Of a DNA stretch of 64,000 nt, positions 7,578-10,364 are shown piece after piece. Source of the stretch: Dysosmobacter acutus (GTDB lineage: Bacteria > Bacillota > Clostridia > Oscillospirales > Oscillospiraceae); assembly GCF_018919205.1 (NCBI RefSeq), contig NZ_JAHLQN010000001.1, forward strand, positions 1,178,001 to 1,242,000. Direction: 5' to 3'. A program made the position numbers and the translations under genes. The notes beneath the pieces are model-generated. The model was not told the origin of the DNA, did no database searches, and saw nothing but the letters and a program-made list of their open reading frames with translations. Positions within the stretch are counted from its first letter, which is position 1. Each line of letters begins with the position of its first letter.

Positions 7578-9168
7578 GATGCAAAAGGATATCATGTACT
7601 TCAGATTATCTGAGGAAGATGAGGAGGATAAGCGCGAGAGCAACAGTATTTCGTCACAAAGAGCCTGTGTGGAGCAATACCTGCACGATAGGCCGGAGTT
7701 AGGCAGCAACTTCGAAGAAATCGTAGATGACGGCTACTCCGGAACGAGCCTTGACCGTCCCGGGATGAGGCGTTTGCTGGCGATGATAAAAAGAAACCAG
7801 GTAAGAACGGTCATCGTTCGCGACCTATCACGTTTTGCAAGAAACTATCTGGAAGCCGGCTATTATCTTGAGATCGAGTTTCCGTCCAGAGGAGTACGCT
7901 TCATTTCTGTTAACGACGGCTTCGACAGCGAGGAACTGGGGGAAGACACCGGCGGACTCGATCTTGCGATCCGCAACCTTGTCAACCAAATGTACAGCCA
8001 TGATATTTCCCGCAAGATCAAAAGCGTTGTGGACATGAAGAAATACAACGGCGAATATGCGTTTGGGGCGGTTCCCTATGGCTATAAAAAGGGGGAGCGG
8101 CATAATACCATTGTGATAGATGAGCCGGCGGCTGAGATCGTTCGCCATATCTTTTCGCTGGCGACTTCGGGAAAGTCTGTTTCGCAAATTGCGTTGACCT
8201 TGAATGAGGATCATGTGCAGACACCTTCCGTCTATCTGGCGGATGTGCGGGGGAGATACAAGACAAGAGCCTTTTGGACCTATGACTCGGTACGGAATAT
8301 TCTCGGAAATCGCATTTACACCGGCGATACGGAGGTGTTCAAATCCCATGTGATGAGAGTAGGGAGCAAGAGAGTTCGCGTGATCCCGGAAGAGCTGCGG
8401 CAGGTCATTCCGGAAACGCATGATGCCATCATTTCCCGCTCGGACTACTATTTGGCGCATAAGGTGATCAAAGGCGTGGCGCCGAGAAAGCCGACAAATG
8501 GCAGGAGAAATCCGCTGTCTTCCTATCTGGTGTGCGGCTGCTGCGGAAACCGGCTGGCAAAAGGGAAAGAGGCCAACAAAACATGGCTTTGTTCCTCTGC
8601 AAGGTATACGAGAGATACCTCCTGCGAACAGGTGCGCATGGATGACCGGAAATTGCAGGAAGTCCTGCTGCGAGCCATTCGGACGCAATGCGAATTGTTT
8701 GATGCCAAAGTAAAAAGATTAGATGAACAGAAACGAAAGGCCGGAAAGGACAAAGTGTTTTTTCTGCAGGAAATCGAACGCTGCCGGAAACTTATGGAAC
8801 AGGTGGAACGTGAAAAGCTGAAGCTGTACGAACAGTATGCTGAAGGGGAATTGTCGAAAGAGATGTTTCTGTCGCAAAAAGAGGAAGTGAGCCTGAATCA
8901 AAATGACATTGCGCTACAGATCAGCCTTTTGCAGACGCGGCTGGAGGAACTGAAAAGCCTTGACGGCGCTGCGCAAAATGAAATACACTTGCTTAGAGAG
9001 CAGACGCAATATCGCGGAATAGCGGAGCTTACACCGGCGGTGATGAAGGAACTGATCCGGCAAATCGTGATTTTCCCTGAAAACAGGATGCGGATCGAGT
9101 GGAACTTTCGGGATGAGATCGTAGAGCAAAAAAGCACTGAAATTTCAATGCCATCAGAAAGTGCATGA
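7567..9168 (+). CDS. Large serine recombinase 3, adjacent to the integration junction
   Basis: A 533-residue enzyme. The ATG at 7567 has GGAGG upstream and overlaps the end of the second recombinase by 11 nt; a longer frame exists but lacks a ribosome site. MYFRLS carries catalytic Ser15, followed by DDGYSGTSLDRPGM and VIVRDLSRFARN. The recombinase domain (VPYGYKKGERHNTIVID) is followed by a zinc ribbon (CGCCGNRL ... WLCSSARYTRDTSCEQ) and a coiled-coil at about 390-470. Its stop is only 69 nt before the spoIVB fragment, placing it against the attachment site. No frameshift or missing catalytic residue is seen in any of the three. Confidence 0.9.
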   Translation: MPFEMQKDIMYFRLSEEDEEDKRESNSISSQRACVEQYLHDRPELGSNFEEIVDDGYSGTSLDRPGMRRLLAMIKRNQVRTVIVRDLSRFARNYLEAGYYLEIEFPSRGVRFISVNDGFDSEELGEDTGGLDLAIRNLVNQMYSHDISRKIKSVVDMKKYNGEYAFGAVPYGYKKGERHNTIVIDEPAAEIVRHIFSLATSGKSVSQIALTLNEDHVQTPSVYLADVRGRYKTRAFWTYDSVRNILGNRIYTGDTEVFKSHVMRVGSKRVRVIPEELRQVIPETHDAIISRSDYYLAHKVIKGVAPRKPTNGRRNPLSSYLVCGCCGNRLAKGKEANKTWLCSSARYTRDTSCEQVRMDDRKLQEVLLRAIRTQCELFDAKVKRLDEQKRKAGKDKVFFLQEIERCRKLMEQVEREKLKLYEQYAEGELSKEMFLSQKEEVSLNQNDIALQISLLQTRLEELKSLDGAAQNEIHLLREQTQYRGIAELTPAVMKELIRQIVIFPENRMRIEWNFRDEIVEQKSTEISMPSESA

Positions 9169-9221
9169 ATTTGATCTACTTTGCGTGATTTCGATAATTT
9201 TTTGAGAAAGTTTAGTTGTCC

Positions 9222-9245
9222 CATATTGACATCAACCATGAGCGG
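9222..9245 (+). other. Right integration junction (attachment site) in spoIVB
   Basis: Host-coding sequence resumes at ATGAGCGGC (9238). In SpoIVB proteins the residue before MSGSP is normally Gly; here the in-frame codon is ACC and the preceding residues (CPILTST) do not resemble SpoIVB, so the crossover lies at or just before 9238. The exact core cannot be fixed without the other end of the element. Confidence 0.6.
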
Positions 9246-9384
9246 CAGCCCGGTCCTTCAGGATGGAAAGATTGTGGGGGCCGTCACCCACGTCCTTTTG
9301 AACGATCCCACCCGGGGCTATGGCATCTTTATTCAGAACATGATGCATCAGGCTTACGGGGAATCCGCGGAGGAAGTCTCCTAA
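9238..9384 (+). pseudogene. spoIVB: 3' fragment of spoIVB (SpoIVB peptidase), interrupted by the element
   Basis: Forty-eight codons that match the C terminus of stage IV sporulation protein B, family S55: MSGSPVLQDGKIVGAVTHVL then LNDPTRGYGIFIQNMM. The catalytic serine is in MSGSP, so everything upstream (signal peptide, PDZ domain, catalytic His and most of the protease fold) is missing. SpoIVB cuts SpoIVFA to start sigma-K activation late in sporulation. Its usual chromosomal neighbour is spo0A, which follows here in the same orientation. An in-frame opening reaches back only to about 9175 through element DNA and has no credible start. As it stands the gene cannot make a functional protease. 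Confidence 0.88.
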
Positions 9385-9445
9385 ATTGCGGTTGTTGTAA
9401 AAGATAGACACAATATACTGCATTTTGGGTAGTTTTTGCAAAAAA

Positions 9446-9500
9446 CGTCGAAATATCATGGAAATTGTTTACAATTTTAGGTTGAAAATCCTGTCCGATT
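9446..9500 (+). promoter_or_regulatory. Upstream region of spo0A with a possible 0A box
   Basis: CGTCGAAA (9446-9453) differs by one base from the Spo0A-binding core TGTCGAA, suggesting self-regulation. AT-rich DNA with TTGAAAA (from about 9483) and TATGATAAT (about 9499) follows; I cannot decide between a sigma-A and a sigma-H promoter. The leader to the spo0A start is about 110 nt. Confidence 0.4.
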
Positions 9501-9611
9501 ATGATAATTTATATACAAGGCCGCATGAAGCTTCATGAATCCGTCGCAAAGCAGAGTCCAATGTCAAATTCAAGGGACTGAAAAATGAATGGAAGAGGAC
9601 AGGGTTAAATA

Positions 9612-10364
9612 ATGGAGAAAAAGGTTGTGTTGGCAGATGCCAGCGAAGAATACCGCGCATTGATGCAGAGCGCTATTGAAAATTCAGGAGAGTTTTCTGT
9701 AGTGGGTTCCGCCGGAGACGGTCTGGAAGCACTCAATTTAATAGAGGAGAAAAAACCGCAGCTTGTTTTAGTGGACGTGGTGCTGCCCGGACTGGATGGG
9801 TTCGGGCTGGTGAAGCGGATCAACGCCCTTCCCGAGGCGCCGAAAACGATTTTGGTTTCCGCATTTTTCAATGAGCACACCGTTGCAGAGGCCGCCGAGT
9901 TAGGTGTGGCTTATTTTTTGCCGAAGCCCTGTGAGATGGAATCCCTGCTGGACAGAATGCGCGGCGCCTGCGAGGAGCAGGCCATGGAGGAGGGGACCCA
10001 CGCTCCGGGACTGGAGGACAAGGTGACCGCCATCATCCACGAAATCGGCGTGCCAGCGCACATCAAAGGATATCAGTATCTGCGCGAAGCCATCATGATC
10101 GCGGTGGACGATATGGACGTCATCAACGCCGTGACCAAGGTGCTGTATCCTGAGGTGGCAAGACGCTACAGCACTACGCCGTCCCGGGTGGAAAGAGCCA
10201 TCCGCCACGCAATTGAAGTGGCCTGGGATCGGGGCGATCTGGAGACGCTGCAAAAATTCTTCGGATACACGGTCTCCAACACAAAGGGTAAGCCGACCAA
10301 CAGTGAATTCATTGCCATGATTGCCGACCGCCTTGTGCTTCAGCGCAAGAGCAGAAAAGCTTAA
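9612..10364 (+). CDS. spo0A: Sporulation master response regulator Spo0A
   Basis: A 250-residue protein with an N-terminal receiver domain (1-120; phosphoacceptor Asp55 in LVLVDVVLPGLDG, conserved Lys in FLPKPCEME) and the characteristic Spo0A C-terminal DNA-binding domain (about 140-250): VTAIIHEIGVPAHIKGYQYL, then REAIMIAVDD and the recognition helix region SRVERAIRHAIEVAWDRG. Length and domain order are normal. The ATG at 9612 is followed by MEKKVVLADAS, the usual receiver start. It lies downstream of the spoIVB remnant as in other spore formers, but 228 nt of intergenic DNA gives it its own promoter, so element insertion should not silence it. A terminator closes the unit. Confidence 0.95.
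   Translation: MEKKVVLADASEEYRALMQSAIENSGEFSVVGSAGDGLEALNLIEEKKPQLVLVDVVLPGLDGFGLVKRINALPEAPKTILVSAFFNEHTVAEAAELGVAYFLPKPCEMESLLDRMRGACEEQAMEEGTHAPGLEDKVTAIIHEIGVPAHIKGYQYLREAIMIAVDDMDVINAVTKVLYPEVARRYSTTPSRVERAIRHAIEVAWDRGDLETLQKFFGYTVSNTKGKPTNSEFIAMIADRLVLQRKSRKA

Follow-up and report, generated by a model that had tools for sequence, protein, structure and literature searches.

A 94.7-kb element with conjugation genes divides spoIVB of Dysosmobacter acutus and may be excised in the forespore

In a 64,000-nucleotide stretch of Dysosmobacter acutus DNA (hereafter the window; G000:C1:1178001-1242000 of the source genome G000, which has two contigs and is 97.5% complete), an intact spo0A gene on the host chromosome (9612..10364, + strand; TIGR02875, 283 bits against a cut-off of 200) is preceded by only the last 48 codons, stop included, of the sporulation protease gene spoIVB. 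This piece opens with MSGSP at 9238, 69 nt past the stop codon (9168) of the third of three large serine recombinase genes. An earlier note on this DNA had described this arrangement and had left two options, an intervening element excised during development or an insertion that blocks sporulation. The locus raises the question of whether spoIVB is broken here or is interrupted in a way that can be repaired.

Profile matches agreed with the description of the 3' part, which runs from the Met before the catalytic Ser to the stop codon (9238..9384, +) and matched PF05580 positions 175-210 (E 2.9e-18) and TIGR02860 positions 361-400 of 402. The search upstream of the window for the missing 5' part, proposed in the note, located it at the far end of a 94.7-kb element (G000:C1:1092546-1187237, delimited by its junctions and gene content), of which window positions 1..9237 (+) are the right-hand end by the same evidence. 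The 5' part (G000:C1:1092036-1092548, PF05580 positions 2-176) is on the same strand and contig as the 3' part, ~85 kb from the window start and 94.7 kb from the 3' part. Both pieces are broken at one codon, that of the Met preceding the catalytic Ser, so the claim of a split at the catalytic-serine motif was correct. The left junction was ...GTCCAGGGC-ATG/GTAGTGAGTTATAATAGGGACAACT and the right junction AGTTGTCCCATATTGACATCAACC-ATG/AGCGGC (also given as ...CAGGGC-ATG/GTAGTGAG... and ...CATCAACC-ATG/AGCGGC), with CATG common to both and the element ends inverted. When the halves were joined computationally, they formed a single frame of 403 codons including the stop, counted from the upstream stop, so that precise excision would restore the spoIVB reading frame. 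From its MDEPQKNQ start, the joined SpoIVB scored 345.6 bits against the NCBI cut-off of 305.25, which neither the 5' open reading frame (ORF; 264.6 bits) nor the 3' piece (67.2 bits) reached alone. No third S55-protease match was found in the two contigs of the genome, and hence no complete second spoIVB; together with the 5' half on the same contig, this ruled out an old pseudogene or a second spoIVB copy in G000, provided that its assembly is correct. The insert is an integrative, plasmid-like element with conjugation genes that interrupts spoIVB at the Met codon just ahead of the catalytic Ser.

The same junction was found well beyond this genome. An alignment of the third recombinase (rec3), scanned against a collection of 84,980 species genomes, gave 40 loci. 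Among the 22 in which rec3 was at least 49% identical, 20 led into a spoIVB 3' end (phmmer), 17 of them directly and L140, L141 and L144 after 0.3-1.6 kb. The spoIVB matches of L147 and L159 were short (12 and 18 residues, owing to a contig end and a second interruption), and L134 and L143 stop at a contig edge with the end motif and ATG still visible. None of the 11 loci inspected among the 18 weaker ones showed spoIVB. Among the carriers, by record title, are Schaedlerella arabinosiphila DSM 106076, whose 115-kb element has the two halves on one contig, Eubacterium sp. 14-2, a Ruminococcus flavefaciens metagenome-assembled genome (MAG) and Candidatus Pseudobutyricicoccus, and record titles place the junction in both Lachnospiraceae and Oscillospiraceae. 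Of the 18 records searched (of 22), 15 had a 5' half that stops at profile position 175-177; G437, G438 and G443 hold a complete spoIVB, G443 with a split copy besides, and the S55 search found no 5' half in G445. As in G000, a single contig carries both halves in G434, G435 and G432, at distances of 115, 108 and 50 kb, respectively. Of 49 spoIVB 3' pieces without a 5' part, from 42 genomes, 37 start at profile position 175 or 176, which argues that the junction position is not due to chance; nine start at 185-191 and three elsewhere (169, 173 and 180). At the order level, 361 of 394 genomes had an S55 match and 35 besides G000 had two or more, although G157, among them, seems to reflect a contig break. 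At the class level, among genomes at least 95% complete, 207 of 293 had such a match and 14 besides G000 had at least two, which may include paralogues. The conserved attachment site that the note had expected was thus recovered in many genomes, and the shared junctions indicate that relatives of the element use the same spoIVB site in many Clostridia. In G437:C16 (L177 and L138), a complete spoIVB was observed together with a trio-bearing segment whose spoIVB 3' end matches it exactly to beyond the stop codon; this may reflect a rearrangement, or filled and empty sites may be mixed.

In a tree of 59 5' halves (4 of 63 were not extracted), the split state needed nine changes, at least six of them forced by well-supported branches. 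Synonymous divergence (dS) between G434 and G435 was 0.02-0.05 for the near-identical recombinases beside 2.6 for spoIVB, which argues that the element moves between distant hosts and finds its site again. The recombinase dS of G439/G346 (1.09-1.28) was compatible with co-inheritance, and the evidence for G430/G433 and G447/G435 pointed to later transfer, so that the test for shared descent was mixed overall.

The ends of the element were then compared. The TG of the Met codon (9239..9240, +; left partner G000:C1:1092544-1092545) is the probable crossover, because the preceding base varies among right junctions while TG is constant. Immediately before the Met codon lies the right-end recombinase half-site AGTTGTCCCATATTGACATCAACC (9214..9237, +), a motif that recurs before 3' fragments and has an inverted copy at the left end. 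By eye, 33 of the 35 right junctions printed (36 requested) had the TTGTCC-type motif or a variant, both exceptions being in G228, and the usual order after the motif was TTGAC and then CACTC-NTG. The motif was also seen downstream of related recombinase trios, and the left ends of elements are its inverse. A second inverted copy (AGTTGTCCCATATTGAC) lies at G000:C1:1092647, ~100 bp inside the left end, and is perhaps an accessory site. Where the otherwise inverted ends differ, they contain the two halves of a promoter: joined element ends spell TTGACA-N17/18-TATAAT, a sigma-A-type promoter sequence, whose -35 half in the window is the TTGACA at 9226..9231 (+), giving TTGACA-N18-TATAAT across the joined ends. 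All 19 elements with both ends scored at least 11/12, and 16 of the 19 were perfect; this set comprised 16 scored elements (13 at 12/12) and G436, G442 and G443, which had escaped the first search pattern and were all 12/12 by eye. In a shuffle control (n = 20000), none reached 12 and 25 reached 11, and attL and attR scored at most 9 in the five elements tested. The circle promoter of G000 would point toward ParA/ParB at the left end, away from the recombinases.

The region upstream of the recombinases contains two further promoter-like sites. A sigma-A-type promoter of the recombinase genes, TTGACA-N17-CATAAT (4115..4143, +; 11/12), is predicted before the first recombinase (rec1), and such a site reached 10/12 or better upstream of rec1 at 13 of the 18 trio loci. 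Between this promoter and the element regulators lies a gene for a DUF6870 protein (3844..4080, +; PF21757, E 1.2e-27), a candidate recombination directionality factor; this ~80-residue protein was encoded just upstream of rec1 in all 17 related trio loci tested (of 22). Its start codon is preceded, 23 nt upstream, by a sigma-F (forespore)-type promoter, GAATA-N15-GGGGAAAATG (3791..3820, +; 11/12). Leaving out L137 and L156 as near-copies, 10 of 16 loci had a sigma-F-type score of at least 11/12 within 170 nt of DUF6870, and the summed score was 171 against a maximum of 154 over 500 Markov resamplings; of 176 control upstream regions, six scored 11 and none 12. Wider windows added sites in L133 (11), L137 (11) and L143 (12) and 10/12 sites in L129 and L132; L138 had none. 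A stricter regular expression occurred 23 times in 630 kb, 15 times before rec1 at one per locus, and was present in 15 of the 18 spoIVB-targeting loci (L130, L138 and L159 being without it). As a control, DUF6870 gave 24 matches in 25 genomes, of which six were in spoIVB elements, one weak partial match was dropped and 17 were kept. These 17 genes lie away from spoIVB ends, and a large serine recombinase adjoins 16 of them. None of their upstream regions contained the expression, and their scores were just 8-10 (15/18 versus 0/17, Fisher 2.9e-7; 2.0e-5 with one row per lineage). A sigma-G model, whose -35 overlaps that of sigma-F, reached 10/11 before DUF6870 in L138 and L141 only, and sigma-E and sigma-K models gave isolated matches (sigma-E 8/8 in L129; sigma-K 7/8 in L140).

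Next, we considered when the element might leave spoIVB. In B. subtilis and C. difficile, SpoIVB is made in the forespore from a gene under sigma-F/sigma-G control (PMC3789822), and excision should therefore be a forespore event and hence heritable, unlike the mother-cell excision of the skin element. The note had named sigma-K activation as the role of SpoIVB. This may not apply, because C. difficile is described as lacking SpoIVFB (PMC3789829); SpoIVB nevertheless matters for spores in that species, in which deletion of spoIVB2 cut the yield by 6 log10, a loss that a mutant of the catalytic Ser failed to restore (PMC11392383).

On balance we think it probable, from the sequence features above, that excision in the forespore repairs spoIVB and that the element persists as a circle and later reintegrates. 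The three serine recombinases, made from the sigma-A promoter, would integrate the element at TG. The DUF6870 protein would act as the directionality factor and be made in the forespore by sigma-F, so that the element would be cut out there at about the time when SpoIVB is needed, and excision would rejoin spoIVB in frame and restore SpoIVB. On circularisation, the -35 and -10 halves would come together as a sigma-A promoter directed into the left end (toward ParA/ParB in G000). Its output, together with RepA_N, would keep the circle through the spore until it reintegrates after germination. This proposed logic copies that of C. difficile skin, a constant recombinase with a cell-type-specific factor, but in the other cell. 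Known intervening elements of sporulation genes act in the mother cell; skin-type excision is not inherited, since the mother cell dies.

Of the two options in the note, developmental excision is favoured over a sporulation-blocking insertion, because the halves join in frame, the 5' frame is open, SpoIVA is kept in all 12 split carriers searched and, above all, because of the sigma-F-type promoter. The blocking option would correspond to a selfish element on a conserved site, with rare excision restoring sporulation without developmental control. We regard this as unlikely, though there are arguments for it: recent transfer has occurred between hosts with very different spoIVB genes, and heterogeneity within a population is documented for the yin element in another spore gene (PMC10747680). 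Against it, the sigma-F-type promoter was found in spoIVB-targeting elements and not in the 17 DUF6870 relatives elsewhere, and in two separate elements at a second spoIVB site a small ORF adjacent to the recombinase is likewise preceded by a sigma-F-type site scoring 11/12. That the hosts no longer sporulate, with spoIVB as a neutral landing site, is improbable. All 16 genomes searched encode SpoIVA, and 12 of these are carriers split at site 1 or 2; a small acid-soluble spore protein (SASP) matched in 14 of the same genomes and was unsplit in 11. The 5' halves are open to the junction and under constraint, with dN/dS of 0.08-0.28 in five pairs with both genes split and, where defined, 0.14-0.36 in five split/intact pairs and 0.15-0.28 in five intact pairs; much of this divergence may predate insertion. 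What speaks for such hosts is that SASP is itself split in three spoIVB-split genomes and missing in 2 of the 16, and that one carrier, Ruminococcus flavefaciens, is not known to form spores. Excision in the mother cell, with SpoIVB made or needed there, has a precedent in C. difficile skin, which is under a mother-cell factor (PMC5025042). It is nevertheless very improbable here, given the sigma-F/sigma-G expression of spoIVB in B. subtilis and C. difficile (PMC3789822) and the isolated matches of the sigma-E and sigma-K models before DUF6870. Some MAG contigs do stop at the junction, and G437 has the identical duplicated 3' end, as might be expected of an old spoIVB fragment or an assembly artefact; with the halves sharing one contig in G000, G434, G435 and G432 and the junction repeated in both Lachnospiraceae- and Oscillospiraceae-titled records, this explanation is hardly credible.

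Several points weigh against forespore excision as proposed. The assignment of DUF6870 as directionality factor is that of a candidate, drawn from position, size, conservation and promoter. The sigma-F consensus was that of B. subtilis, the stricter expression was tuned after hits had been seen, and the stretch that it covered differed, lying before rec1 in the elements and within 260 nt before DUF6870 in the controls. Recent arrival in some hosts means that open 5' halves there prove little, and the missing or split SASP genes count on the same side. In G074, G148, G348 and G291, spoIVB is split at 175 with no rec3 match at E 1e-60, in the split genome G357 the rec3 matches are only 32% identical, and DUF6870 was found in none of these five. 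Finally, no relaxase was matched among the 19 element ORFs scanned, so that the word conjugative rests on the type IV secretion system (T4SS) genes.

The gene content of the element is plasmid-like. Its left end adjoins genes for ParA, ParB and a Bro-N protein, and its interior encodes TrbL, a TraG-type ATPase, a VirD4-type coupling protein, RepA_N and a helicase, with further SpaA-domain, MoxR, VWA and ThiF proteins and a weak JAB match. An integrase is thus combined with T4SS genes (VirD4 and VirB4-type), as in integrative and conjugative elements. The right end carries an Xre-type helix-turn-helix regulator (2347..2736, - strand; PF01381, E 5.1e-12), a sigma-70 region-4-like regulator (3140..3625, +; PF04545, E 2.4e-9), the DUF6870 protein and the recombinase trio (4214..5869, 5871..7577 and 7510..9168, all +). 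The first two recombinases matched PF00239, PF07508 and PF13408; the third matched PF00239 and PF07508 above cut-off and PF13408 just below it, and contains the YxRLS motif. Beyond the element, at 10798-12563, two divergent, near-alike adjacent GntR-type regulators are followed by two dihydrodipicolinate-synthase-like genes (named by eye).

Other origins were tried. No phage structural family had a Pfam match among the 19 element ORFs scanned, and a viral-contig scan, reliant on short exact patterns, gave no relative. The one close record in a phage collection, MT836038.1 (50% identity), is itself an unverified scaffold, on which a spoIVB 3' end is present along with the recombinase trio and the end motif; this human-faeces record (L205), labelled 'Bacteriophage sp.', is probably chromosomal. 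A plasmid collection gave 329 records, every one below 60% identity, the best among the matches listed being 34%. A staphylococcal cassette chromosome (SCC) element was rejected, as the trio scored at best 85, 76 and 67 bits against NCBIfam cut-offs of 700-900 for CcrA/B/C, and the target is spoIVB instead of rlmH, which is the target of SCC.

Recombinase elements in sporulation genes are a known kind (skin, SPbeta, gin and yin). A close counterpart is gin in gerE of Bacillus cereus (28.6 kb; GirA/B/C and GirX; PMC5595907), likewise a non-phage element with three serine recombinases that splits a sporulation gene and has a small directionality factor, for which there is a candidate here. It differs in its gerE target, in having no conjugation genes, in the position of girC apart from girAB and in excision by GirC with GirX, whereas the spoIVB element has 94.7 kb, T4SS, RepA and ParAB genes, a contiguous trio and a predicted forespore timing. 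The C. difficile skin element (recombinase CD1231, directionality factor CD1234) shares a recombinase expressed throughout from a sigma-A-type promoter and a cell-type-specific factor, but is prophage-like, lies in sigK and is excised under mother-cell control (PMC5025042). The yin element in yabG of Clostridium botulinum is also recombinase-borne and inside a spore gene, and its excised circle has been seen; it is prophage-like, has a putative SigK promoter on its factor and was reported from one isolate (PMC10747680). In SCC elements with Ccr, several elements are likewise joined at one gene, and Ccr is able to act on non-canonical att pairs such as attR x attR (PMC5595907).

Tn4451 and Tn4453 reportedly form, at the joined ends of their circle, a promoter for the TnpX recombinase (Lyras and Rood 2000, by title, as cited in PMC13023037); the circle promoter of the spoIVB element would instead read into the left end and not into the recombinases. 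Among the open-access papers covered, none contained both 'spoIVB' and 'serine recombinase' (subscription papers were outside the scope), none of the titles and abstract openings listed named an element inserted in spoIVB, and 'spoIV' was absent from the main text of a large recombinase survey (PMC10083194; its supplementary target tables were outside the scope). As far as the literature covered allows one to see, several features are new: spoIVB as the target and its use across many genomes, an element that is plasmid-like and has conjugation genes, control of the forespore type, and the cassette arrays described below.

In many genomes spoIVB itself is complete, and downstream of it come one or several orphan 3' ends that the same right-end motif precedes; no convincing left end was found at the cassettes in those genomes. 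Such arrays, at L029, L084-L096 and others, consist of small, mostly metabolic cassettes, each closed by a spoIVB 3' end. Twenty intervals, delimited by a regular expression, measured 0.2-5.1 kb, and between different intervals a single pair of cargo ORFs was at least 40% identical. Twenty of the 44 cargo ORFs listed were scanned. Matches included AraC regulators, glycyl-radical enzymes, aminotransferases, M20 peptidase, GH32, GH95, dehydrogenases, ornithine cyclodeaminase, Fic and AAA_14, and 4 of the 20 had none. No close rec3 homologue was found in the cassette-array genomes, a few of which carry distant ones (31-34% identical); we infer that the recombinase trio may mobilise the cassettes. 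The arrays are like integrons in layout and unlike them in enzyme, and resemble SCC composites, for which Ccr can recombine attR x attR (PMC5595907).

A second site was found ~20 codons downstream in spoIVB, at VTHV, where a different, single serine recombinase precedes the 3' end (L033 in G001:C141 and L076 in G135:C29). It corresponds to the TXV motif, Thr393-His-Val395 (PMC6581720). The 11/12 sigma-F-type sites mentioned above come from these two cases. In L159 (Candidatus Flemingibacterium, 9146-9400), spoIVB seems to be broken twice, by a site-1 junction and then a site-2-like end at VTHV. The SASP gene is also split, at about profile position 21-28, in L169 (G348:C26), L170/L171 (G291), L172/L173 (G346) and G181:C26, making SASP a second spore gene serving as attachment site. 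By eye, a serine recombinase precedes the SASP 3' part in L169, L170 and L172; the halves are ~4 kb apart in G348 and 23 kb in G181, and G013 and G018 show a single half. The 4-kb G348 element contained several 10/11 sigma-G sites, and the G346 and G291 stretches had none at the thresholds used.

A broader proposal, which we offer tentatively as possible, is that spoIVB serves Clostridia as a reversible germline switch and gene-capture platform, with exit in the forespore under sigma-F only, a circle with a maintenance promoter, re-entry, and integron-like, recombinase-less metabolic cassettes of 0.2-5 kb. A forespore target combined with a forespore-type promoter on the candidate excision factor predicts that the chromosome of the spore itself is rearranged in a heritable and reversible way, and forespore excision would explain why an important spore gene can harbour a large element with conjugation genes. 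This bears on the transmission of gut commensals by spores, and genome surveys may misjudge sporulation where a split spoIVB looks broken. The element and its relatives also supply a group of serine recombinases whose single target is precisely conserved, and the cassette arrays suggest a site of gene capture in Clostridia.

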